Shown one piece after another: positions 35,439 through 50,817 of a stretch of DNA of 50,817 nucleotides (the first letter of the stretch is position 1; each line of letters starts with the position of its first letter). The position numbers were made by a program, and so were the translations under genes. The stretch comes from Clostridia bacterium. GTDB lineage: Bacteria > Bacillota > Clostridia > Oscillospirales > CAG-272. The stretch is from assembly GCA_017508195.1 (NCBI GenBank), contig JAFVZL010000049.1, positions 1-50,817 of the forward strand, in the 5' to 3' direction. Below the pieces are notes generated by a model, which saw only the letters and a list, made by a program, of their open reading frames with translations, searched no databases and was not told where the DNA came from.

Positions 35439-38375
35439 TTATCTTGCAACCTCTTCGATGATGAACGCCTCGAGAGTATCACCCTCGCGGATATCGTTGA
35501 ACTTCTCGATACCGACACCGCACTCGTATCCGTCATTGACTTCCTTGACGTCATCCTTGAATCTTCTGAGCGATGAGATTTTATCCTCAAAGATTACGAT
35601 ACCGTCACGGACTATACGGATAGAGGACTGACGGGTAATCTTTCCGTCCTGAACGTAGCATCCTGCAATGATACCGACGTTCGGAACCTTGATCGTCTGA
35701 CGAACCTCGGCATGACCGAGAAGCACCTCGCGATAGGTGGGAGCAAGCATACCCTTCATTGCCGCCTCGACCTCATCGATTATCTCATAGATGATACGGT
35801 GAGTACGGATATCTACCTTATTACGCTCCGCGGAATCGAGAGCGTTCTTATCGGGACGTACGGAGAATCCGACGATAATAGCATCGGATGCCGCAGCGAG
35901 CATAACGTCACTCTCGGTGATGCCGCCGACCGCACTGTGAATAACGTTTACCTTTACTTCCTCGTTCGAGAGCTTGAGAAGCGAAGCCTTTACTGCCTCG
36001 GCAGAGCCCGCTACATCAGCTTTAACGATTATATTGAGAACCTTCGTACCCTCGGAGATACGGCTGAAGAGGTCGTCGAGGTTGACTCTTGCGTTAGCGG
36101 CAAGTATTTCCTGACGCATCTTTTCTCTTCTCTGCTCCGCGAGGTCACGTGCCATTCTCTCGTCCTCTACCGCGTTAAGCTCATCGCCCGCCTGGGGAAC
36201 GTCGTCAAGACCGATTATCTCAACGGGAACGGAAGGACCTGCAACCTTGACCGTCTTACCCTTATCGTCTATCATTGCTCTTACTCTACCGGTAGAATTA
36301 CCTACGATGACGTAGTCACCCTGATGAAGTGTACCGTTCTGGATAAGCACGGTCGCAACGGGACCGCGACCGCGATCGAGCTTCGACTCGATTACAAGAC
36401 CGCGTGCGCGCTTTGCGGGGTTGGCCTTAAGCTCCTTGACCTCCGCTACGAGAAGCACGCTCTCGAGAAGGTCATCTATACCCATACCCGTGAGTGCGGA
36501 AACGGGAACTGTAATAACGTCACCGCCCCATGCCTCGGGAACGAGCTCGTACTGAGTAAGCTGATTAAGAACGTTGTCGGGATTAGCGTGCGGCTTATCC
36601 ATCTTGTTGATAGCTACGATGATATCAATGCCTGCCGCCTTAGCGTGGTTGATAGCCTCAACGGTCTGGGGCATAACACCGTCATCTGCCGCTACTACGA
36701 GTATCGCGATATCGGTGGACTTAGCGCCGCGCATACGCATTGCGGTGAACGCCTCGTGTCCGGGAGTATCAAGGAAGGTGATATCCTTGCCGCTTGCCTT
36801 TACTCTGTAAGCACCGATCGCCTGAGTGATACCGCCGGCCTCGCCCTTGGTTACGTTAGTATGTCTGATAGCGTCAAGAATAGAGGTCTTACCGTGGTCA
36901 ACGTGACCCATTACGCAAACAACAGGAGCACGCTCTACGAGATCCTCCTCGTTGTCCTCCGCCTCGGTAAAGAGCTTCTCCTCGATGGTAACTACTACTT
37001 CCTTCTTGACCTTAGCGCCGAACTCGTCAGCGATAAGCTCTGCGGTAGCGAAATCGATAACGTCATTAAGGCTCTTCATCTCGCCCATCATCATGAGCTT
37101 CTTGATTACCTCGGCCGAGGTCTTCTTAAGTCTTATTGCAAGCTCGGAAACAGTGATCTCATCGGGAACGGATATCTCGAGCTGCATCTTTCTTGCACGC
37201 TCTGCCTCCATGCGCTTGATGCGCTCCTGGTTGGCTCTCTCTCTGTCCTTCGCGCTCTTCTGGTTCTGACCGCGGTTATCCTGCTTCTTGATCTTGGTCT
37301 TTGACGTAGTGGGCTGACCACCTCTCGAGCCGCCGTTAGCGATAGCATAGTACTGATCGTTGAAGCGATCGTCGTACTTCGAAAGATCGACATCGGTGGT
37401 TCTCGTATCGATAACTCTCTTACCGGGTGCGGTAGTGGGAGCATCTGCACCGATATTTACGCCGCCCGTAACCTGACCGCGATCAACGGTAATGGTTCTG
37501 AGCTGCTGACGCTGAGCGGGAGTCTTCTTCTCCTCGCGCTTAGGCTGCTTCGGAGCCGTAACTGTCTCCTGAGCCTTCTGGCGTCTTTCGAGCTGCGCCT
37601 GCTGTGCCTGCTGAGCGGGACGCTCTGCCGATGCAACGCGAGCTGCCTCCTCTACCTCCTTCGGGCGTACTGCCTGAGGCTGAGGCTGCTGCTGAGCAGG
37701 TCTCTGTCCCACGGGACGCGTCGGCTGTCCCTGTCCTGCGGGGCGTCTGCCCTCAGCATTTCTGTTCATATTTTCACGGCGCTTTGCGAAGGGATCCTCT
37801 GAGGGTCTTGCGCCGTATCTCGAATTCTGCTGGCCGTAGGTTCTCTGTCCGCCCTGTGCGCCCTGTGCGCCCTGAGGACGTCTGTCCTCTCTGGGTCTCT
37901 CGGCTCTCTCGGGCTGACGGGGTCTGTCCTCACGCTTATCCGCGGGCTTCTCAGCCGCCTTCTGCTGAGGCTTGGGCTCTGCCTTCTGCTGAGGCTTGGG
38001 CTCTGCCTTTGCCGCAGGCTTAGGCTCTGCCTTTGCCATAGGCTTGGGCTCTTCCTTTGCCGCAGGCTTCTCCTCAGCTTTAGGCGCAGGAGCCGCCTTT
38101 GGCTCCTCCTTAACCTCGGTATTTTCCTCCGCCTTGGGCGCGGGCTTTTTCTTGGCCTGTGCCGCCTTTATTGTCACCTTACCCGAGGTATACGCCTCGA
38201 GATCATGGATCTGGTGGGTAGACGTCATGTGCTGCATGAATATCTCAAACTCGAGATCCGTGACCGATGCACCGGTATTTTTATCAATTTTAATTTCTTT
38301 AAATCCCTCGATAACATCCTTGGTTTTCATTCCGAAATCCTTGGACATCTCCGAGATCTTAGTTACTTTTGCCAT
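35439..38375 (-). CDS. infB: Translation initiation factor IF-2
   Basis: A 978-residue IF-2, the GTPase that places initiator tRNA on the ribosome. IF2_N modules stand at the N-terminus ([15 protein letters not shown]) and near 400. Between them is a long disordered linker rich in Ala, Pro, Lys and Glu, then Arg and Gln. The GTPase has GHVDHGKT near 483-490, DTPGHEAF and NKMDKP. The C-terminal domains C1 and C2 follow. The ATG at 38375 has GGTGG before it and is the conserved start, preferred over a GTG three codons upstream. It is the last gene of the operon: a terminator follows and rbfA is not adjacent. Confidence 0.97.
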
Positions 38376-38425
38376 GTAAGCCACCGTTCGACCTTATATT
38401 TCAGCCGAACTTCCTTTCGTCGAAT

Positions 38426-39014: not shown

Positions 39015-40049
39015 TCAGTCTGCCTTGATATCTATCTTGCAGCCTGTGAGACGTGCAACGAGCTTAGCGTTCTGTCCCTCTCTGCCGATTGCAAGAGAGA
39101 GCTGATCGGGAGCTACGGTAACGCGAGCGGTGCGCTCGTCCTCCATAACGACCGAGATTACCTTGGCGGGAGAAAGAGCCTCTGCGATATAATCCTCAAT
39201 ATAGTCGCTGTACTTGATGATGTCTACCTTCTCTCCACCGAGCTCATCGAGAATAGCACCGATACGCATACCGTTCTTACCGATGCACGAGCCTACTGCG
39301 TCAACGTTCTCGTCACGCGACTGAACCGCGATCTTGGTTCTGCTGCCCGCCTCGCGCGATACTCCCTTAATAAGAATCGTACCGTCCTGTATCTCGGGTA
39401 TTTCAAGCTCGAATAGCCTTCTTACAAAGTTGGGATGAACTCTCGAAAGATTAACGATAGGTCCGCGGGTCTCACCCGAGTTGACCTCGGAAACGAACAC
39501 CTTGATCCTGTCGCCGACATCATGGACCTCGCCGGGGATCTGCTCGGACTTGATAAGAGTCGCACGGCCTGTTCCCGTATCGAGAATGAGGTTTCCGTTC
39601 ACCATATCTACCTTATCAACTACCGCAGTAATGATCTCCTCGCGCATCTGCTCGTAAGCACGGGTCTGCATCTCGCGCTCCGCTGTGCGGATAGCCTGAA
39701 TGATCATCTGCTTACCGGGCTGAACCGACAGGCGGCGGAAGGTCTTGGTCTTTAGCTCGGTCTCAACGAAGCCGCCGAGCTTGTTTCTGCGGCTGAGCGC
39801 CTTTGCATCCGAGAGCGAGATTTCACACTTCGGATCGACAACCTCACCGTCGGGAACGACAAGACGCTGCTGGAATACCTTCATATCGCACTTAACCGGA
39901 TCGAGATGCACGCGGATAAGAGCGGTGGCACCCACTTCCTTTTTGCAGGCGTTTGCGAGAGCCTCCTCGATCTTCGCGAGCATATACTCCTTTGATATTC
40001 CGTTCTCCTTCTCGAGCAAGTCGAGAGCATTGAAGAGTTCTGCGTTCAT
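39015..40049 (-). CDS. nusA: Transcription termination/antitermination factor NusA
   Basis: A 344-residue NusA: N-terminal RNA-polymerase-binding domain (about 1-125), S1 domain (about 135-200, with GDRIKVFVSEV) and two KH domains (about 205-344, with GSCIGKNGMRI and SLAIGREGQNAKLVARLTG). It lacks the C-terminal acidic repeats of Proteobacteria, as is usual for Firmicutes. It binds polymerase and modulates pausing and termination, which is relevant to the leader hairpin of its own operon. AAAGGAA precedes the ATG. Confidence 0.97.
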   Translation of the reverse strand: MNAELFNALDLLEKENGISKEYMLAKIEEALANACKKEVGATALIRVHLDPVKCDMKVFQQRLVVPDGEVVDPKCEISLSDAKALSRRNKLGGFVETELKTKTFRRLSVQPGKQMIIQAIRTAEREMQTRAYEQMREEIITAVVDKVDMVNGNLILDTGTGRATLIKSEQIPGEVHDVGDRIKVFVSEVNSGETRGPIVNLSRVHPNFVRRLFELEIPEIQDGTILIKGVSREAGSRTKIAVQSRDENVDAVGSCIGKNGMRIGAILDELGGEKVDIIKYSDYIEDYIAEALSPAKVISVVMEDERTARVTVAPDQLSLAIGREGQNAKLVARLTGCKIDIKAD

Positions 40050-40155: not shown

Positions 40156-40617
40156 CTACTCCTCGACGTAAACCGTGGCGAGCTTCGATATCTCAGCCTT
40201 GGTAAGCGATACGGCATTATCGCCCTCGGTTATGGTTATCACACCGTCCTCGTATGCTGAAAGGATGCCGATTATGCTCTTTTTGCCATCCTTAGCCGCG
40301 AACAGCTTCGCCTCGACGGGCATACCGATAGAGGCGGTGATGTGATCGTCTGTTCTGAGCTCGCGCTCGATTCCGGGCGATGACACCTCAAGGTAATAGA
40401 ATCCCTCGATAGGATCACACTCGTCGAGTATGGGATCTATCGCACGATGCACGCGCTCGCAGTCGTCGATGGTAATACCGCGCTCATTGTCTATAGTGAT
40501 CTCGAGGTGGTAGTCTGCACCGATTTTTGAATAGGTAATATCCCATATGTCATAACCCAGCTCGGTTACCGTTGGTAGTATCGCCTCTCTGACTGTATCC
40601 CTGACGCTTTTCTTCAT
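40156..40617 (-). CDS. rimP: Ribosome maturation factor RimP
   Basis: A 153-residue RimP, needed for 30S subunit assembly. The blocks LGYDIWDITY (about 20-29), ITIDDCERVHRAIDPILDE (about 49-67) and YYLEVSSPGIERELR (about 74-88) are typical. The ATG at 40617 has AAAGGAG before it; an ATG 12 codons upstream lacks one. It is first in the operon with nusA, 106 bases ahead of it. Confidence 0.94.
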   Translation of the reverse strand: MKKSVRDTVREAILPTVTELGYDIWDITYSKIGADYHLEITIDNERGITIDDCERVHRAIDPILDECDPIEGFYYLEVSSPGIERELRTDDHITASIGMPVEAKLFAAKDGKKSIIGILSAYEDGVITITEGDNAVSLTKAEISKLATVYVEE

Positions 40618-40775: not shown

Positions 40776-40988
40776 TTAATTGTCGTTAGGGGAGTCGCCG
40801 AGCTTGTATCTGCGGCGCCTATATTTCGGGAGTCCCATTTCAAGCGAGATCTCATTCATAATGTCCTCTATCTCGTATACGGTCTCATCCCTGAGGCTCT
40901 CAAGGCGCTCTATGGCACGCCGGCGCTCTACGTCGGTCATATCCGACACCTTTTTCGTGAAAAGCTCTGCATCGCTGCTGATCGCCAT
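40776..40988 (-). CDS. Small 70-residue protein, function unknown
   Basis: A 70-residue, highly charged protein, mostly helical, with a basic RRRR segment near the end (KYRRRRYKL). The ATG at 40988 has AAGGAG before it; the upstream frame has no such signal. It lies 130 bases after the giant gene and just before the rimP promoter. I do not recognise it; it resembles small conserved Clostridia proteins with a helical hairpin. Confidence 0.6.
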   Translation of the reverse strand: MAISSDAELFTKKVSDMTDVERRRAIERLESLRDETVYEIEDIMNEISLEMGLPKYRRRRYKLGDSPNDN

Positions 40989-41118: not shown

Positions 41119-44100
41119 TTAGGGTAAGAGCTGTCCAAGGAACGGGAAGAATGAAAGCACTATATTAAGTACTGCCTGCCACTTCCAGATAAGCACGCCT
41201 GCCGCAGCACCGATAACCAGGATAAGCATAAGAGCGAGGACGAACCTACCGTTCTTTATTCTTCTTTCTTTTGCCTCGGAGAGTGCTCTCTTTCCGATCT
41301 TGCGGATCGTGGACTTATTCTTCTTGAACGTCTTCTTACTCTTCTCGAGAGTCGTGAGCGCATCCTTACGGGCACGTCCCGAGGGTCTCTCGTTAGCAAG
41401 AATGTATCTGCTTCTTGCAATAGCTCCCGCCAGCTCTACCTGCTCATCCATGAGCTCATAAAGCTTCTCACGGTACTTATTGCTAACTTTTGTTATGGAA
41501 ATCTTGCGTGCAAGCTTGCTTTGAGTTCTGTGCTCCTTGTCACGCGCGATTCTTTCCGCCTTATCTCTTTCAGCAGCGTTACCATTTCTCGCGCTTCCGA
41601 GATAGAGCTCGGTCAGACGCTCGTTGATCTCATCTCTCTTAACGAGAAGGTTGATAAGCTTCTCACGAAGCTCGCCGAGCAACGCCATATCCATGGCTCC
41701 ACCGAATCTTACGGTCGAAAGGTCGGTCATCACGAAGGAGTAGTACCTTCTGTTATCCGCTTTCTCAAGGCTTACCGCGCGAGGTGCGCGCTTACGCGCG
41801 ATCTTGAGGTCACGCTTGTTGTCACGCAGCTCAAGATTTTCCTCCCATGTACGCTTGGAGAACTCCTTCGATGTCGTGCGACATTCGGTTTCGAGCGAGG
41901 ATACAATGTATGCCATCTTCGCCTTCATATACGCGATATCACGCATCTGATGTGCTCTCGAAAGCTTCTCGAGTGTCTTCTTATCATAGATAAGAGCCTC
42001 GAGCACGGGACCTTCGATAGGCTTGCCCCAACGTCTTTCATGGCGCGCCTTTCTGTTTTCGATACGGCGCTCATCTCTGATGAGAAGCTCCATCTCGCGT
42101 GCCTTTGTGCGTCTTTCCTCGGCTCTTGCCTCGCGCACGTTCTGCCCGTTGATAAGCTCGTATATACGCTGTGCCTCGCTGTCGATTCTACCTCTTTCAC
42201 CGTCGGTAGTCTCTATCTCGAGTATAGCAAGCTCGCGTGCGAGCTCCTCGTCTATCACGGGATCGTCAAAGACAGCTCTTTCGAGAGCCTCCGCCGCCTC
42301 GAGTTCACGCGCGTTTCTAGCCTTGATTGCCGCATCACGGCCCCTCGAATACTCACCGAATGCTACCGCATCGTTCTCGAGTGCCTCCTCGGCTATCTCC
42401 TCCTCACCGTCGAGGTTCATCTTGACGGGCTCTTCCTTCTCCTCATCGGGTGCGGTGTAAGGAAGATCGATCTTTTCCTCGTCAGTAATCGCGGGATCTG
42501 CCTTAATGGCATCGTCTCTCTCTCGAGAGTATTTAGCGAACTCAAGTGCGCTCTCGCCCTCTACCTTCCTAATATAAGCCGCCTCGCCGGATACCTTAAC
42601 CGATACCGCACTGCTTGCTGCTTCTTCATTAATAGTATAAGGAAGAGAAATCTCATCAGCTGCACAAGACGTTCCGCTCTTGAGAGCACGGTCTCTCGAC
42701 TCGAAGTATTCTCTGAACTTTACAGCATCCTCGCCGTCCAGCTTTTCCTCGTATGCCTTTTCGACAGCACTTACGCGCACGGTCGTACGTCTCGGCTCAT
42801 CAGTGACGGATACGGTATACGGTGTCTTGGGATCCTCCTCGGGAGTAGCGGCACCGGATCCCGCTATAGCACCGTCTCTTTCACGCGAGTACTTATCAAA
42901 TGCAAGTGCATCGCGTACCTCGTCGCGCTTCGATCCCGTAGCTTTCTTAGGAGATGTCGTCTTGGGAGTCGGGAGCTCATCCTCTACGATACTGATAGGC
43001 TCGGCAACCACCTCAGCCTCTCTGGTATTTTCGGACACCTGTACCCTTATCGCCTTATCTCTTTCGCGAGAGAATCTCTCGAAGGCGATAGCATCAGCTC
43101 TCTCCTCCTTAGGAGTCACACTGCTCTTGGCAGTATGTGTTACGGGAGCTGCCGTGTCGTCAAAGCTCTCCTTTACAACGTAACGGAGCTCGGGCTCGAC
43201 CGCGGATTCCTCGGCTCTGCGCCTTATCTCCTCGTCACGCCTCTTAGAATAGTCGCTGAATGCGATGGCATCGTTTTCGATGATCTCCTCGACCATATCA
43301 TCGACACCGGGTACATTGTTGATATCGTATTCGGGTGCTGCAGCCTCTTCTCCGATATCGTGTATACCTATAAGGCGTACGTCATCGGACTTTTTGGATG
43401 CTTCAGGCTTCTTACCCTTTTCCGTTACGGGAGTGCGTACGGGCTCAGCAACAGGCTCGGTAATTTCATAGCTTGCCGAAGCGGCAGCATTTTCCTCCTG
43501 AAGCTTAACCTGTATATCTCTTTCGCGGTTGTACTTCTCAAATTCAAGTGCAGCCTTAAGTCTTTCACGCCTTGCGGCCTTCGGATCAACACTCTCGCTC
43601 ACGCGGACGGGATCAATAACCTCGTCGATGGTGTGAGAAACGCTATCCATGAAGGGTTCTTTATTTGCTTCAGCACTTGCCGCAGCCTCTGCTGCCCTCG
43701 TTTCAAGCACCTTGTCGCGCTCGGTGTTGTATCTTTCAAATGCAAGCGCATCAAGAAGTCTGTCACGCTTGGTGACCTCGCTCTTAGGCTTGGTTACCGT
43801 TGCCTTAGTAGGTGTAGGCTCAACTACCTCGTTAACACCGTGAGGTACGGTGTCCGTGAACGGCTCTGTCGGAGCCGCTGCCGCTGCATCCACAGCCTGT
43901 GCCGCCATTGTTTCAAGAACCTTGTCGCGCTCGGTGTTGTATCTTTCAAATGCAAGTGCATCAAGAAGTCTGTCACGCTTAGTGACCTCGCTCTTAGGCT
44001 TGGTTACAGTTGCCGCCGTGGGTGTAGGCTCGACTACCTCGTTAACACCGTGAGGTACAGTGTCCGTGAACGGCTCTGTCGGAGCCGCTGCCGCTGCATC

Positions 44101-47100
44101 CACAGCCTGTGCCGCCATTGTTTCAAGAACCTTGTCGCGCTCGGTGTTGTATCTTTCAAATGCAAGTGCATCACGGATCTCGTCACGCTTGGTGACCTCG
44201 CTCTTAGGCTTGGTTACCGTTGCCTTAGTGGGCGTAGGCTCAACTACCTCGTTTACTGTATGAGGCTCGCTGTCCATGAACGGCTCTTTTGGAGCCGCCT
44301 CTGCTGCATCCACAGCCTGTGCCGCCCTTGTTTCAAGAACCTTGTCGCGCTCGGAGTTGTATCTCTCGAATGCAAGTGCATCCGCTACCTTATCGCGCTT
44401 GGTGACCTCGCTCTTAGGCTTGGTTACCGTTGCCTTAGTAGGTGTAGGCTCGACTACCTCGTTGACACCGTGAGGAGTACTGTCCATATACGGCTCAGTC
44501 ACACCTCTTGCCGCCGCATCAGCAACCTGTGCGGCTCTGGTCTCAAGTACCTTATCACGCTCGGTGTTGTAACGCTGGAACTCGAGTGCGTCCTTGACCT
44601 CGTCGCGCTTCGTGACCTCGCTCTTAGGCTTGGTTACGGTGGTCGCGGTGGGAGTAGGCTCGACTACCTCGTTAACACCGTGAGGTACACTGTCCGTGAA
44701 AGGCTCTGCCGGAGCCGCTGCCGCTGCATCCGCAGCCTGTGCCGCCCTTGTTTCAAGAACCTTGTCGCGCTCGGTGTTGTATCTCTCGAATGCAAGTGCA
44801 TCGCGGAGCTCGTCACGATCAGAGCTCTTTTTCTTCGGCTTGGCCTCCGGCTTAGCATCATCCGCAATGCTGAAGAACACAGACACAACGCGGTCGGTAT
44901 AAGCTACCGAGAGTGCGTGCTCACCGACACTTAACATATTAAGGTATATGGGCTTGATGGTGATTATAGTGCTACCGCTTCTCGCCTCATAATACTTTTT
45001 ATTGACTCTCTTTCCGTCAAGACTGAGTCCGCGGAATTTCTCAAACGGAGCATCGATCCTGAATTCGAGAGCCTTACCGCTACCCTTACTCCACTCACCG
45101 GGGTTAGCCTCGTAAGGAGAAGTATACTCATCTGCATGAGTCTCCCCCTCCTTGGCCTTGATAGCGCGGATCTCTCGGTCTCTATCCTCGGAGAACTGCT
45201 TGAATGCTAAAGCATCGGCTTCGATCGCGTCAGCAATAAGCTCCTTCTCACCGTCAATCTCGGCAGGAACTACTATGCGTACCTTTTCCTCGGGAACGCG
45301 ATAAGGAAGATCTATCTTATCCTCGTCGCTCGGCTCGGTGGATCTATACTCCTTGTCTCTCTCGCGGTAATACTTTTCAAAGGCAACGGCCTCATCACCC
45401 TCGAAATCAGCGAGAGCGCGGCTATCAACGTCGCCGCTATTTACGGAAATACTTGCATCCGTACTATCGGCAGCACCATAAGGTATGAATGCCTCGGTCT
45501 CGGGAATTCTACCCTCAGCCTTGATGCGTGCATCTCTTGTGCGGGACTCCTTAGCGAATGTTACCGCATCCTCGCCAGCCATAGCCTCGTCGTAAAGCTT
45601 TTCCGCCTTGGACTTGGTCGCGGTAGGCTTAGCCTCGGTTACTTCCTCGGCTCCGTAAGGCATGCTTGCCTCGGTCTCGGAAATTCTGTCCTCAGCCTTG
45701 ATGCGTGCATCTCTTGTGCGGGACTCCTTAGCAAATGCTACCGCATCCTCGCCAACCATAGCCTCATCGTAAAGCTTTTCCGCCTTGGACCTGGTCGCAG
45801 TAGGCTTAGCCTCGGTTACTTCCTCGGCTCCGTAAGGCATGCTTGCCTCGGTCTCGGGAATTCTGCCCTCAGCCTTGATGCGTGCATCTCTCGTGCGGGA
45901 CTCCTTAGCGAATGCTACCGCATCCTCGCCAACCATAGCCTCGTCGTAAAGCTTTTCCGCCTTAGACCTGGTCGCAGTAGGCTTAGCCTCGGTTACTTCC
46001 TCGGCTCCGTAAGGCATGCTTGCCTCGGTCTCGGGAATTCTGCCCTCAGCCTTGATGCGTGCATCTCTTTCGCGCGAATACTTCGCGAACTCGGTAGCCT
46101 CGAAGCCTTCCTCGAATACAACAAACTTTTCCTCTGCGGAGCTGATTCTTGACTTCGGCTTCGTCTCTTCAACATCGGTTGCAGAATAAGGTACGGCAAC
46201 CTCTTCCTTAGCCTCAGAAGCAAGCACGGATATTTCACCGTCTCTTGCGCGGGAATACTCCTCAAAACGAAGCGCATCCTTGACTTCATCGCGCTTGGAT
46301 ACGCGCGTTCCCTCTGCCTTTACGGTTACGGGTTCTATATCAGAAGTGTCCGCCTCATAAGGCTTGCGGATCTTCTCAGCTTCCCTTGCGAGAGCATCTA
46401 TTCTGATCGTCTCGTCTCTCTTGCGAGAGTACTCGGCAAACGCGAGTGTTTCCTCTTCAATAGCTTCAGCTATAAGATCGGACTCACCCGGAATGACAAC
46501 ATTTGTTTGCTTATCGACCGTTTCCGCAGCTACAACATACGGAATATCGATCTTTTCTTCTTTTATTATAGTGACAGAATCAGGCTCAACTACCTCGTTT
46601 ACTGTATGAGGTACGCTGTCCATGAACGGCTCTTTTGGAGCTGCCTCTCTTGCATCCAGAGCCTGTGCCGCTCTTGTTTCAAGAACCTTATCACGCTCGG
46701 TGTTGTAACGCTGGAACTCAAGTGCGTCCTTGACCTCATCGCGCTTCGTTACCTCGCTCTTAGGCTTGGTTACGGTTGCCGCCGTGGGCGTAGGCTCAAC
46801 TACCTCGTTTACTGTATGAGGTGCGCTATCCATGAACGGCTCTTTTGGAGCCGCCTCTGCTGCATCCACAGCCTGTGCCGCCCTTGTTTCGAGAACCTTA
46901 TCACGCTCGGTGTTGTAACGCTGGAACTCAAGTGCGTCCTTGACCTCATCGCGCTTGGTGACCTCGCTCTTAGGCTTAGTTACCGTTGCCGCCGTGGGCG
47001 TAGGCTCAACTACCTCGTTTACTGTATGAGGCTCGCTGTCCATGAACGGCTCTTTGGGAGCTGCCTCTGCTGCATCCACAGCCTGTGCCGCCCTTGTTTC

Positions 47101-50100
47101 AAGAACCTTGTCGCGCTCGGTGTTGTATCTCTCGAATGCAAGTGCATCACGGATCTCATCGCGCTTGGTCGGTCGGTCATTTTCGGAAGCCGACGCGTCC
47201 TCAATGCTGAAGGAAAGCACAACAGTTCTGTCCGTATAAAGAACGGAGATGGAGTGTGCACCCGTAGCAAGAGTCGCAAGATAAACTGCTTTAAGCGAAA
47301 TAATTGTGCTTCCGCTTCTAGCCTCGTAATATTTCTTGCTTACTCTCTTTCCATCAAGAGTAAGGCCGCGGAATTTCTCGTAAGGTGCATCGATCCTGAA
47401 CTCGAGCGAATCTCCGCTTCCCTTTGTCCATGTCGTAGCGCCCGGGAGATTTCCCTCTACTTCGGCATCTCTCGGTCTCTTATTCAAACTAGAGAGCTCT
47501 CTATCCCTCTGTCTCGAATATCTCTCAAATGACAGTGCAGCTTCTTCGGCATCACGGTCGGTAAGCTTTTCGGTAGGCGTAGCAATTACAGAAGGCTCTT
47601 CTTCGCCGTCCTCACTCAGTTTGTAAGGAAGAACAATTCCAGGTTCGGGCTCGTTCGCCTCTTTTCTGAGTGCTACATCTCTCTCGCGAGAGTATTCGGT
47701 AAATCTTGTGGCATCCTCCTCGATAATATCCTCGATGAGCTCTTTCTCACCGTCAATAAACTCAGGAACTCGCTCGGGCTCAACCTCCTCGGGAACCTTA
47801 TAGAGAAGATCTATCTTATCTTCACTAACCGTTCCCTCTCGAATTGCCCTTTCGCGCTCTGTGCTGTATTTCTCGAATGATACCGCATCCTCGCCTACAA
47901 CAGACTCATCATATGCCTTTTCAGCCTTAGTCTTAACGGACTCGGGCTTGGTCTCCGAAATCTGCTCGGTGGTATAGGTCGTAGTGATCTCTGCCTCGGG
48001 GATCTTACCCTCAGCCTTGATGCGTGCATCTCTTTCGCGAGTTTCCTTAGCGAATGCTACTGCATCCTCGCCAACTACGGACTCATCATATGCCTTTTCA
48101 GCATTAGTCTTGATAGTCTCGGGCTTTGTCTCGGAAATCTGCTCGGCGGTATAGGTCGTAGTGATCTCTGCCTCGGGGATCTTATCCTCAGCCTTGATGC
48201 GTGCATCTCTTGTGCGGGACTCCTTAGCAAATGCTACCGCATTCTCACCAACGACAGACTCATCATAAGCCTTCTCAGCCTTGGTCTTTACGGACTCGGG
48301 CTTGGTCTCCGAAATCTGCTCGGTGGTATAGGTCGTAGTGATCTCTGCCTCGGGGATCTTACCCTCAGCCTTGATGCGTGCATCTCTTGTGCGGGACTCC
48401 TTAGCAAATGCTACCGCATTCTCACCAACGACAGACTCATCATATGCCTTTTCAGCCTTAGTCTTGATAGTCTCGGGCTTAGTCTCGGTAATCTGCTCGG
48501 CGGTGTAGGTTGTAGCAATCTCTGCCTCGGGGATCTTTGCCTCTTCGGCAATTCTTGCATCGCGCTCACGAGAGGTCTTAAGGAAGGCTATTGCATCATC
48601 CTCAATAGCATCTGCCTCTATTTCCTCATCGTCGCGGGTGCGCTTATATTCGGTCTTTGTCTCGACTTCTTCGGGTACGTTATACGAGAGATCCGGCTCC
48701 ACTTCGGGTGCTTCGCCCTCGCGGATAGCCTTATCTCTTTCCTCACTGTACTGCTCGAATGCTACCGCATCCTCGCCAACCGCGGACTCATCATAAGCCT
48801 TCTCAGCCTTGGTCTTTACGGACTCGGGCTCTGCGAGCTGATCGGCAGTGTAAGGGATGGTGATCGTATCCTCGGGTATCTTACCCTCGGACTTGATTTC
48901 TTCATCTCTTCTACGCGAGTATCTTTCAAACTTGATCGCTTCATCTCCCTCGAGATGCTTATCAAGCATGCGCTCCTCGACGGTAGGTGCAAGAGAATTC
49001 GCAGGCTTCTTGATATTATCCGTCTTTCCGACATTCTCGACATTCTCGGGAGCATCATCTATCTTGTCCGCGATGGTCTTCAGCACCTCAAGAGGATTTG
49101 CGATATAGAACTTAATATCTATCTCACGGTCAATGAAAATGACTGTAAGCGTGTGTGTACCGTGGGCGAGCGTTTTAAGGAAGAGGATGCTGAGAGTAAT
49201 GATCGTGCTTCCCGCGCTTGCCCTATAATATTTGCTGTTAACCGGCTTTCCGTCTACCTTTATGCCCTTGAACTTCTCGAAGGGCGCATCAACACCGACG
49301 GTGAGAGGCTCCTTACTCTCCTGCTTCCATGCATTCTTACCGAATTCGAAGCCGCCCATCGGAGCATATTTATCTTCTTTTTCCGAAGCGGAATATCCGG
49401 CGTTATATCCATCTATGTAAGCCTCTTCAGATGTCAGACCGTCATACTGAGAACGGTCTCTGAACTGCTCGTTTTCACGGAAGAACTTATCGCGATCTCT
49501 GCTGTACTCAAGGAATGCAATCGCGGCATCCTCTTCACCATTAGCACCGCTCATACGAGTAGGCGTGTGATAATCGGCTACGTCGGGACCTTCGATATGC
49601 TCATAGAACCTCTTGTCCTCATCCGCAACGCGGCGAGCAAATTTATCCTCGGGTATCGGCTCTGCAACCGTCGGCTGTTCTTCTGCTGCCGGCTGCTCCT
49701 CCTCGACGGTCTCTGTGCTCTCGGCAATAAGTGCATCTCTGTCCTTGCTGTATTTAGCAAACGCAACGGCATCCTCACCGATAGCATCCTCGCTTACGAA
49801 ATCATCGTCCTCAAGCTCCCAAAGCTTCTTATTTCTCTCGCGAGAATAGCGGGCGAACTCCTCAGCACTCTTGATTATGTCCTGCTCGGTAGGCTCCTCA
49901 CCGTACTCGTAGTGATAGGTGTCATCCTCAAGATTTTCACTGACAGCTTTATCTCTTTCGCGAGAATATTCGACAAAGCGCTCAACGTCCGTCTCTATCT
50001 CCTTGTTATCGGGAGATAATACAGGCGGCTCTGCCTCTCCATCTTCCGGAGCAGTGGGTCTTTTAAGTATGTCAACAGAATCAGGATCGTCGAGAACAAC

Positions 50101-50817
50101 GTATACGTGCTGATCGCGCTCTGTGTAGATATCACTGTCGCGCTCTCGCGAGTAATCCTCAAAGCTGAGGGCATCGGATTCTATCTCACTGCTTGTAGGA
50201 TCCTTCTTTACCTCTACGATATCCGACTCATTCTCGACCTCGGCGAAATCATACTCTACTTCGGCTGTATCCTCAGCGGTAGCAACACGTTCATCGGAAC
50301 CGATATCGTAAATGACTTCAGTCTCGTCATTCTTTTGGGAAAGCTCACGGCTTCTTCTGGAGTACTCAGCAAATTCAAGCGCATCCTTCTCAAGATTGCT
50401 CTTGGTGGGTCTTCTAAGCTCTTCGGGTGCAGTTTCCTCACCGTCCGTGACGTAGACTACCTCTTCATCCTCACTTCTTTGCTCAGACTCCTCGCTATCG
50501 ACAACGTATTCTACGTCACCGTCCCTGCCAGACTCCGACTCATCCTCATCAAACTCGAATACAACCTCGCCGCGATCGATTGCTCTGTCTCTCTTCTTAG
50601 AGAACTCGGCAAATTCAAGCGCGTCCTTCTCAAGCTCGCTCGAAGTGGGTCTTCTCGACTCCTCGGGCTCGGACTTGTCTTCATCTGTTTCGTAGTCTAC
50701 GTTATCCGCATCGGATCCCTTTGCCTCGTCCTCGTCGGTTACGTAATCTACTTCCTCGTCATCGCTCTCTGAGGATTCCTCATCCTTGCCGAAGACATAG
50801 ACGATCTCCCCGTCGGG
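41119..50817 (-). CDS. Giant repetitive tail-anchored protein, 5' part outside window
   Basis: The minus-strand frame is open from the window edge to TAA at 41119-41121: 3232 codons, with no start needed inside. An ATG at 49554 is in frame, but about 420 codons of the same repeat pattern lie upstream, so the start is beyond the window. About 40 copies of an 18-residue amphipathic helix motif (DAxxFxxYSRERDxxI) are spaced by acidic, Pro/Thr-rich linkers that often carry LPYxVPEE-like segments. Three Ig/X2-like modules interrupt them. The last 450 residues are basic and helical. A membrane helix (about 41180-41245) and a short hydrophobic tail end the protein. Basic residues before the helix predict the bulk is cytosolic. 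I do not recognise a family. Confidence 0.88.
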   Translation of the reverse strand, partial: PDGEIVYVFGKDEESSESDDEEVDYVTDEDEAKGSDADNVDYETDEDKSEPEESRRPTSSELEKDALEFAEFSKKRDRAIDRGEVVFEFDEDESESGRDGDVEYVVDSEESEQRSEDEEVVYVTDGEETAPEELRRPTKSNLEKDALEFAEYSRRSRELSQKNDETEVIYDIGSDERVATAEDTAEVEYDFAEVENESDIVEVKKDPTSSEIESDALSFEDYSRERDSDIYTERDQHVYVVLDDPDSVDILKRPTAPEDGEAEPPVLSPDNKEIETDVERFVEYSRERDKAVSENLEDDTYHYEYGEEPTEQDIIKSAEEFARYSRERNKKLWELEDDDFVSEDAIGEDAVAFAKYSKDRDALIAESTETVEEEQPAAEEQPTVAEPIPEDKFARRVADEDKRFYEHIEGPDVADYHTPTRMSGANGEEDAAIAFLEYSRDRDKFFRENEQFRDRSQYDGLTSEEAYIDGYNAGYSASEKEDKYAPMGGFEFGKNAWKQESKEPLTVGVDAPFEKFKGIKVDGKPVNSKYYRASAGSTIITLSILFLKTLAHGTHTLTVIFIDREIDIKFYIANPLEVLKTIADKIDDAPENVENVGKTDNIKKPANSLAPTVEERMLDKHLEGDEAIKFERYSRRRDEEIKSEGKIPEDTITIPYTADQLAEPESVKTKAEKAYDESAVGEDAVAFEQYSEERDKAIREGEAPEVEPDLSYNVPEEVETKTEYKRTRDDEEIEADAIEDDAIAFLKTSRERDARIAEEAKIPEAEIATTYTAEQITETKPETIKTKAEKAYDESVVGENAVAFAKESRTRDARIKAEGKIPEAEITTTYTTEQISETKPESVKTKAEKAYDESVVGENAVAFAKESRTRDARIKAEDKIPEAEITTTYTAEQISETKPETIKTNAEKAYDESVVGEDAVAFAKETRERDARIKAEGKIPEAEITTTYTTEQISETKPESVKTKAEKAYDESVVGEDAVSFEKYSTERERAIREGTVSEDKIDLLYKVPEEVEPERVPEFIDGEKELIEDIIEEDATRFTEYSRERDVALRKEANEPEPGIVLPYKLSEDGEEEPSVIATPTEKLTDRDAEEAALSFERYSRQRDRELSSLNKRPRDAEVEGNLPGATTWTKGSGDSLEFRIDAPYEKFRGLTLDGKRVSKKYYEARSGSTIISLKAVYLATLATGAHSISVLYTDRTVVLSFSIEDASASENDRPTKRDEIRDALAFERYNTERDKVLETRAAQAVDAAEAAPKEPFMDSEPHTVNEVVEPTPTAATVTKPKSEVTKRDEVKDALEFQRYNTERDKVLETRAAQAVDAAEAAPKEPFMDSAPHTVNEVVEPTPTAATVTKPKSEVTKRDEVKDALEFQRYNTERDKVLETRAAQALDAREAAPKEPFMDSVPHTVNEVVEPDSVTIIKEEKIDIPYVVAAETVDKQTNVVIPGESDLIAEAIEEETLAFAEYSRKRDETIRIDALAREAEKIRKPYEADTSDIEPVTVKAEGTRVSKRDEVKDALRFEEYSRARDGEISVLASEAKEEVAVPYSATDVEETKPKSRISSAEEKFVVFEEGFEATEFAKYSRERDARIKAEGRIPETEASMPYGAEEVTEAKPTATRSKAEKLYDEAMVGEDAVAFAKESRTRDARIKAEGRIPETEASMPYGAEEVTEAKPTATRSKAEKLYDEAMVGEDAVAFAKESRTRDARIKAEDRISETEASMPYGAEEVTEAKPTATKSKAEKLYDEAMAGEDAVTFAKESRTRDARIKAEGRIPETEAFIPYGAADSTDASISVNSGDVDSRALADFEGDEAVAFEKYYRERDKEYRSTEPSDEDKIDLPYRVPEEKVRIVVPAEIDGEKELIADAIEADALAFKQFSEDRDREIRAIKAKEGETHADEYTSPYEANPGEWSKGSGKALEFRIDAPFEKFRGLSLDGKRVNKKYYEARSGSTIITIKPIYLNMLSVGEHALSVAYTDRVVSVFFSIADDAKPEAKPKKKSSDRDELRDALAFERYNTERDKVLETRAAQAADAAAAAPAEPFTDSVPHGVNEVVEPTPTATTVTKPKSEVTKRDEVKDALEFQRYNTERDKVLETRAAQVADAAARGVTEPYMDSTPHGVNEVVEPTPTKATVTKPKSEVTKRDKVADALAFERYNSERDKVLETRAAQAVDAAEAAPKEPFMDSEPHTVNEVVEPTPTKATVTKPKSEVTKRDEIRDALAFERYNTERDKVLETMAAQAVDAAAAAPTEPFTDTVPHGVNEVVEPTPTAATVTKPKSEVTKRDRLLDALAFERYNTERDKVLETMAAQAVDAAAAAPTEPFTDTVPHGVNEVVEPTPTKATVTKPKSEVTKRDRLLDALAFERYNTERDKVLETRAAEAAASAEANKEPFMDSVSHTIDEVIDPVRVSESVDPKAARRERLKAALEFEKYNRERDIQVKLQEENAAASASYEITEPVAEPVRTPVTEKGKKPEASKKSDDVRLIGIHDIGEEAAAPEYDINNVPGVDDMVEEIIENDAIAFSDYSKRRDEEIRRRAEESAVEPELRYVVKESFDDTAAPVTHTAKSSVTPKEERADAIAFERFSRERDKAIRVQVSENTREAEVVAEPISIVEDELPTPKTTSPKKATGSKRDEVRDALAFDKYSRERDGAIAGSGAATPEEDPKTPYTVSVTDEPRRTTVRVSAVEKAYEEKLDGEDAVKFREYFESRDRALKSGTSCAADEISLPYTINEEAASSAVSVKVSGEAAYIRKVEGESALEFAKYSRERDDAIKADPAITDEEKIDLPYTAPDEEKEEPVKMNLDGEEEIAEEALENDAVAFGEYSRGRDAAIKARNARELEAAEALERAVFDDPVIDEELARELAILEIETTDGERGRIDSEAQRIYELINGQNVREARAEERRTKAREMELLIRDERRIENRKARHERRWGKPIEGPVLEALIYDKKTLEKLSRAHQMRDIAYMKAKMAYIVSSLETECRTTSKEFSKRTWEENLELRDNKRDLKIARKRAPRAVSLEKADNRRYYSFVMTDLSTVRFGGAMDMALLGELREKLINLLVKRDEINERLTELYLGSARNGNAAERDKAERIARDKEHRTQSKLARKISITKVSNKYREKLYELMDEQVELAGAIARSRYILANERPSGRARKDALTTLEKSKKTFKKNKSTIRKIGKRALSEAKERRIKNGRFVLALMLILVIGAAAGVLIWKWQAVLNIVLSFFPFLGQLLP
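43612..44830 (-). repeat. Six tandem 210-bp (70-codon) repeats in the giant gene
   Basis: The segment encoding ERDKVLET recurs with anchors at 43711, 43921, 44131, 44341, 44551 and 44761, exactly 210 bases apart. Each unit encodes one RYNTERDKVL helix, an Ala-rich linker, EPFMDS or EPFTDT, and the VTKPKSEVTKRD segment. Near-identity at DNA level points to recent unequal exchange or slippage. Confidence 0.9.
44855..45115 (-). other. Ig/X2-like domain, third copy, in the giant protein
   Basis: About 85 residues with the pattern FRIDAPFEKFRGLSLDGKR, then YYEARSGSTIITIKPIYLN and a HALSVAYTDR strand. This is the beta-sandwich layout of X2-like or Ig-like modules of Gram-positive surface proteins. 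It is nearly the same as the copy at 47200-47455. Confidence 0.65.
45490..46090 (-). repeat. Four tandem 177-bp (59-codon) repeats in the giant gene
   Basis: The anchor CCTTGATGCGTGCATC occurs at 45519, 45696, 45873 and 46050, exactly 177 bases apart. Each unit encodes RIPETEASMPYGAEEVTEAK, a KAEKLYDEAM helix, and the AVAFAKESRTRDARI helix motif. Confidence 0.9.
46570..47180 (-). repeat. Three tandem 210-bp repeats in the giant gene
   Basis: The same 70-codon unit as at 43612-44830, with anchors at 46686, 46896 and 47106. The two blocks are separated by 1.7 kb of other repeat types, which suggests block duplication. Confidence 0.88.
47200..47455 (-). other. Ig/X2-like domain, second copy, in the giant protein
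   Basis: About 85 residues (FRIDAPYEKFRGLTLDGKR, YYEARSGSTIISLKAVYLA, VLYTDR). It stands directly before the 210-bp block, as the third copy does, so domain plus block were probably duplicated as one unit. Confidence 0.65.
47870..48560 (-). repeat. About four tandem 177-bp repeats in the giant gene
   Basis: Anchors at 48015, 48192 and 48369, 177 bases apart, with degenerate flanking units. The unit encodes KIPEAEITTTYTAEQISETK, KAEKAYDESV and the RTRDARI helix. It is a paralogue of the 45490-46090 unit with the same length. Confidence 0.88.
49090..49350 (-). other. Ig/X2-like domain, first copy, in the giant protein
   Basis: A more divergent copy (VGVDAPFEKFKGIKVDGKP, YYRASAGSTIITLSILFLK, LTVIFIDREI). 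Its position, about 490 residues into the visible part, may mark an older boundary between the acidic N-terminal repeats and the tandem blocks. Confidence 0.6.

Follow-up and report, generated by a model that had tools for sequence, protein, structure and literature searches.

A giant repeat protein with a basic, helical C-terminal domain encoded upstream of rimP, nusA and infB in gut Clostridia

The window, by which we mean the whole stretch of 50,817 nucleotides that was analysed, is a single complete contig, and the giant gene that dominates one end of it (Table 1) runs off the contig edge. As the preliminary description had stated, the frame is open for 3232 codons up to this edge; it is read from the minus strand, which that description did not give. 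The protein is cut there, and about 1,020 further residues, with 6 further motif copies, are found in the same genome on contig C4, which has a length of 8202 bases and ends in 93 bases identical to the initial 93 of the window's reverse complement. It also carries the CBS gene, which precedes the giant gene in the relatives, and the frame downstream of the CBS gene starts with AAAGGAGGAACC-TTG (GGAGG and a TTG start) and continues for 1051 codons to the contig end. Joined in this way the giant protein is about 4,252 residues long, with 40 motif copies from the window and 6 from C4, 46 in all, though the true length may differ from 4252 because the contig break falls between similar repeats. 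A contig end inside the giant gene was found at 9 of the 30 family loci, which implies that the gene may be under-represented in short-read MAGs. In G016, the nearest relative, an in-frame stop separates the likely start region from the remaining giant frame (L025:5446-5448), and this stop can be either natural or an assembly error.

Table 1. Position of the giant gene, its parts and its neighbours in the window
Feature	Position	Strand	Basis or remark
Giant gene, 3' 3232 codons	41119..50817	-	5' part on contig C4 (L132), same genome
Overlap with the end of contig C4, junction of the gene halves	50725..50817	-	93 identical bases
Arm with 40 copies of the 20-residue motif, consensus GEDALAFEKYSRERDKAIKA	42319..50631	-	regular expression and position-specific scores
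X2-like Ig domain 1	49075..49329	-	sequence profile
Tandem array, 177-base (59-residue) units	47876..48537	-	DNA-level repeat
X2-like Ig domain 2	47176..47430	-	sequence profile
Tandem array, 210-base (70-residue) units	46582..47169	-	DNA-level repeat
Second tandem array, 177-base units	45479..46069	-	DNA-level repeat
X2-like Ig domain 3	44839..45093	-	sequence profile
Longer tandem array, 210-base units	43683..44817	-	DNA-level repeat
Basic all-helical C-terminal domain, family-defining	41248..41982	-	profile and model
Single C-terminal membrane helix, 22 residues before the end	41188..41244	-	hydropathy
Small co-occurring gene, 70 aa, ending GDSPNDN	40776..40988	-	profile
rimP, flanking	40156..40617	-	
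nusA, flanking	39015..40049	-	
infB, flanking	35439..38384	-	

The long arm of the protein is acidic, with a net charge of -279 over 2892 residues. About 40 motif copies had been reported in it, and we counted 39 with a regular expression and 40 with a position-specific matrix. The 40 matrix matches score 12.5-47.9 bits, 39 of them at least 26.9, as compared to 8.1 bits for the best score in 30 full shuffles of the whole protein. Because the regular expression itself demands F and R and limits the choice in two more columns, these four columns were masked. With the masked matrix, whose training units were still chosen by the pattern, 39 matches remained above the best of 20 shuffles (10.7), and in these 39 both F and R were kept every time, D and A in 37 each and Y in 29. 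Most repeat units have a length of 59 or 70 residues, with one motif apiece. Among 16 hand-chosen units, 50 of 57 pairs had a dN/dS of 0.11-0.55, five lay outside this range (0 to 0.80) and two were saturated, which implies that for the most part the repeats are selected at the protein level. Within the window's own genome, which is 88% complete, the profile of motif and unit matches only contigs C40 and C4.

The preliminary description had not noticed the X2-like Ig domains, the conservation of the C-terminal domain or the small gene downstream, all described below, and two parts of its account of the arm had to be corrected. Its linkers were said to carry a second, LPYxVPEE-like motif, but this pattern matched only 4 times, and the periodicity expected of an amphipathic helix was not above chance, the mean helical moment being 0.248 in the repeat units and 0.269 in shuffled ones, which leaves the amphipathic-helix argument unsupported. 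AlphaFold2 nevertheless places helices over both of the motif copies that were modelled, with a pLDDT of about 70-93 in one and about 52-70 in the other; the linker between them falls below 50.

Besides the motifs, the arm holds three 85-residue X2-like Ig domains in the window and one in G016. There is no other copy elsewhere in the window's genome, and when 27 family proteins were scanned for the GST[IV]I pattern of these domains only those of the window and L025 carried it. The whole giant protein matches CBM_X2 (PF03442) with an E-value of 0.0023 and 18.4 bits, and domain 1 alone reaches 15.8 bits, both short of the Pfam cut-off of 28.9 bits; with the domains taken separately, PF03442 listed one of four at E 0.1. 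The X2-like profile has a single match among the PDB sequences, the IgA protease 9qa6 (E 3.3e-15 over 74 residues), and the matched stretch is presumably an Ig/X2 domain. Domains of this kind are usually found in secreted proteins. Here they sit inside a protein without a visible signal peptide.

The C-terminal domain of the window protein carries a net charge of +25 over 260 residues, and the earlier description of acidic repeats followed by a basic C-terminal part was thus accurate. The net charge of this domain is positive at all 30 loci (L084 in part only). An AlphaFold2 model of residues 2740-3232 has a mean pLDDT of 82 and a pTM of 0.55; the pLDDT exceeds 90 over most of the C-domain, and in a comparison of the model with solved folds none stands out. 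The dN/dS of the domain is 0.16-0.34 in 10 of 11 pairs, several of which have a dS above 1.5, and one pair is saturated; the values for NusA are 0.03-0.07. By these ratios between sequences, the C-domain is under purifying selection.

Close to its end the protein has a hydrophobic helix at residues 3192-3210 of 3232, which is the single C-terminal anchor already noticed in the preliminary description. A single helix this near to the C-terminus, less than about 50 residues away, is the layout of a tail-anchored protein. Such a helix is present at 25 of the 30 loci, with tails of 10-38 residues, and a few of the longer family proteins show extra weak hydrophobic peaks. At 22 of the 25 loci that have the helix, the stretch in front of it carries a higher net charge than the stretch that follows. 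According to the positive-inside rule this bias is expected when the body of the protein is cytoplasmic, so the charge bias would agree with a predicted cytosolic body and a putative post-translational insertion. When the initial 80 residues were scanned for hydropathy in the 19 frames that follow a CBS gene (L132 included), no hydrophobic segment was found; 18 of these frames have true starts, and that of L025 begins behind the in-frame stop. With no signal peptide in sight, a cytoplasmic scaffold tethered to the membrane is the most economical reading.

At the other five loci the helix is missing. Three of them (L031, L035 and L071) have a split gene, with an N-terminal giant and a separate soluble C-domain gene of 524-525 residues without a helix, or 535-541 residues when the whole frames are counted. 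Hydrophobic segments are present in the N-terminal part at L031 and L071; the N-terminal part of L035 spans two frames, and the scan covered the first one. At L037 and L083 the helix is absent with no replacement. The giant gene was also seen in more than one frame at L029 and L037.

The surroundings of the gene are well kept. Where the contig reaches, the order is a MutS-like gene, a pantothenate-kinase-like gene (Fumble/BadF match), CBS, giant, small, rimP, nusA, ylxR and infB. At L025-L037 the MutS-domain-V protein, the pantothenate-kinase-like protein and the small CBS protein recur as a run upstream of the giant gene. A large frame lies immediately behind the CBS gene at 19 loci, and rimP is found at most 3 kb downstream at 29 of 30, the last one, L079, stopping at the contig edge. 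Between the giant gene and rimP a profile detected a small protein of 64-80 residues at 29 of the 30 C-domain loci, with E-values that are optimistic because the profile was iterated on the same loci. Its start is at most 60 bases from the stop of the giant gene in 22 of the 29 (median 18, 130 in the window and 299 at L080). At the remaining locus, L028, a 65-residue frame unmatched by the profile occupies the same place, and it is possibly a fast-evolving member of the small-gene family. The profile had no match at any of the 16 loci without the C-domain, most of which are outside the clade or short. A profile comparison among the motif, the small protein and the C-domain found no link between them.

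The strongest sign that the giant and the small gene form one module is their joint absence. In G011 and G071, both inside the clade, the CBS gene is directly followed by rimP and both genes are gone, which also implies that the module is not essential there. The site next to rimP-nusA-infB suggests co-expression with factors of translation and transcription, which does not settle the function.

A search with the last 473 residues gave matches in 15 of 59 genomes, the window's own included, all of one genus. G003 was removed, its match being an unrelated helix-turn-helix protein. A profile built from 14 C-domains then had matches in 29 of the 69 genomes from this genus, and the family set consists of 30 loci from these 29 genomes. 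G079 has two module loci (L080 and L081), each followed by rimP and nusA, and these represent either a duplicated locus or mixed strains. A scan of named GTDB genomes with the initial part of RimP as query gave 30 clade loci, some of them without the module, and the titles of 26 name the gut of sheep, goat, roe deer, water deer, yak or horse, while four name no host. In a midpoint-rooted NusA tree, from which L073, L079 and L082 were left out, the module loci cluster in a single group with full support, made up of 30 rows, of which 27 have the module and 3 lack it; the third row without it, G085, ends at a contig edge. Outside the clade, G004 has a different frame of 2602 residues upstream of rimP (L097:1988-9796, reverse-complement orientation).

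It had seemed from the preliminary description that the motif array was the essence of the protein, but it is found in only 2 of the 27 family proteins scanned, the window's with 40 copies and that of G016 with 23; it is missing from the other 25, the scan having left out L035, L071 and L084. The two share one branch of the NusA tree (support 100/99), and when the motif region was compared to a set of 5.8 billion proteins one protein was found, of 2215 aa, apparently that of G016. What is kept in the family is the C-domain, the locus and the small neighbour, and binding through the motif cannot be a function common to all members. In place of the motifs, 19 of the 30 loci have 1-9 matches to a 123-residue domain, partial matches and split genes included, which has no match in the window or G016. 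In its model (pLDDT 93, pTM 0.86) this sister arm domain has three long helices and one that is short. The frames that carry the C-domain range from 535 to 3384 aa, if the 137-residue contig-end piece of L084 is excepted, and the charged fraction of the arm is 0.29-0.44 at all 30 loci.

We give an even chance to the explanation that the window protein is a tail-anchored, cytoplasmic and multivalent scaffold with an exchangeable arm, the 46 predicted-helical motifs of which would each bind a putative partner. The scaffold role is one that we infer from the architecture. Most likely the C-domain, basic and helical, would together with the membrane helix and the small protein make up a kept anchor complex at the membrane, from which the arm would extend into the cytoplasm as an exchangeable part that sets reach, valency and putative partner. 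In the lineage of the window this arm would consist of motif helices strung on acidic linkers with three Ig-like beads, and in many sister lineages of predicted three-helix domains. The fixed F and R of the motif make binding more likely than pure spacing. Against a scaffold speak the presence of the array in 2 of 27 proteins, the 5 of 30 loci without a helix, the X2-like domains, the low confidence of one of the motif helices, an amphipathicity no higher than in shuffled units, the two clade genomes that lack the module, and the negative profile comparison of motif, small protein and C-domain.

A wider and more tentative proposal concerns the family as a whole. It is possible, at rather less than an even chance, that the anchor C-domain and the small partner stay in place and that the arm is replaced wholesale between lineages, re-tooling valency and partner, so that the module would be a new intracellular scaffold system. 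Strings of motif helices, chains of three-helix domains and charged coils could then be interchangeable types of arm.

Somewhat unlikely, but to be taken seriously, is that the arm is a passive spacer or brush anchored in the membrane, with motifs that bind nothing and repeat types that are interchangeable, so that only length and charge matter and extension alone has been selected. The wide variation in arm type and frame length at one and the same locus would agree with this, as would the share of charged residues, which stays within the same limits at every locus. A spacer would not require the F and R that remain fixed in all 39 units found with those columns masked, and many units have diverged synonymously yet kept their protein sequence, beyond what a generic spacer would need.

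We find it improbable that the arm is exported and displayed on the surface, with the C-terminal helix as anchor, in the manner of giant adhesins with Ig-like beads. The three X2-like domains and an IgA protease as the sole PDB sequence match point in this direction, and giant proteins of Apilactobacillus kunkeei are reported to be extracellular (PMC12863079). No hydrophobic segment is seen near the start of any of the 19 frames that follow the CBS gene, however, the helix has its basic side towards the arm, and the X2-like pattern is confined to two of the 27 proteins.

It is very improbable that the arrays are a selfish repeat expansion, or an assembly artefact, without function. The genes that break off at contig ends, the in-frame stop near the start of the nearest relative's frame and the few repeat-unit pairs with a dN/dS of 0.6-0.8 could be explained in this way, but the C-domain and most repeat-unit pairs are under purifying selection, the locus is fixed and the small gene co-occurs with the giant one, and the motif array is also present in the separate assembly G016. 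It is hardly credible that the motif derives from a degenerate helix of the UVR type (PF02151), with an arm that would collect UVR-binding proteins such as UvrC or Clp components. In favour is an hhalign alignment of the two in register of F and RD (P = 0.067), the UVR motif being a two-helix hairpin with the conserved AA..L.FE.AA.LRD, but 463 of 3000 column-permuted controls did as well. UVR (cut-off 21.5 bits) gave no match on C40 at E 1 in a search of the own genome and is absent from the Pfam matches that were listed for the giant protein at E 10.

If the protein is indeed a membrane-tethered scaffold, these gut Clostridia with their small genomes spend up to about 13 kb beside rimP-nusA-infB on one that fits no family in the databases searched. 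It would also imply that a cytoplasmic scaffold can retain its anchor and partner while exchanging the whole binding arm. Evolution of this kind is familiar in surface proteins and toxins, but to our knowledge not in internal scaffolds. The 30 loci, with different arms on one type of anchor, and with close relatives and two natural absences among them, make up a set on which this could be tested.

As far as searches of Pfam, NCBIfam, PHROGs, PADLOC and the PDB reach, the C-domain family is undescribed, in line with the first impression of the giant protein. The motif, the C-domain and the small gene fit no Pfam family, with matches below threshold only, the X2-like domains aside. Neither NCBIfam (P0001) nor PHROGs (P0001, P0002) gave a match, the PADLOC defence models, compared to P0001, P0002 and one small protein, gave no family at E 0.01, and among PDB sequences and folds none fits the motif, the C-domain or the small gene. 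The likeness to CBM_X2 and X2-like Ig domains (PF03442) lies in the three 85-residue domains in the arm, which are below the Pfam cut-off and a minor part of a giant protein predicted to be cytoplasmic. With the UVR motif the repeats share a similar L-x-F and RD spacing, but the similarity was not significant in any test. The Giant1-5 proteins of Apilactobacillus kunkeei are likewise thousands of residues long; they are reported to be extracellular (PMC12863079), whereas the window protein has no visible signal peptide and its anchor is C-terminal.

A Foldseek search with the sister arm domain gave no match with an E-value below 1 and no significant match in the PDB. In general layout a parallel may be seen in EzrA, a spectrin-like scaffold of the divisome with five triple-helix repeats of about 100 residues, which has one membrane helix and a long, all-helical cytoplasmic body (PMC5354558). 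The anchor of EzrA is N-terminal, whereas that of the giant protein is C-terminal, and the giant protein is far longer, with a variable arm, an extra basic C-domain and a small gene at its side. The sister arms, though not that of the window, may come nearer to EzrA in that they hold repeated domains of three predicted helices.
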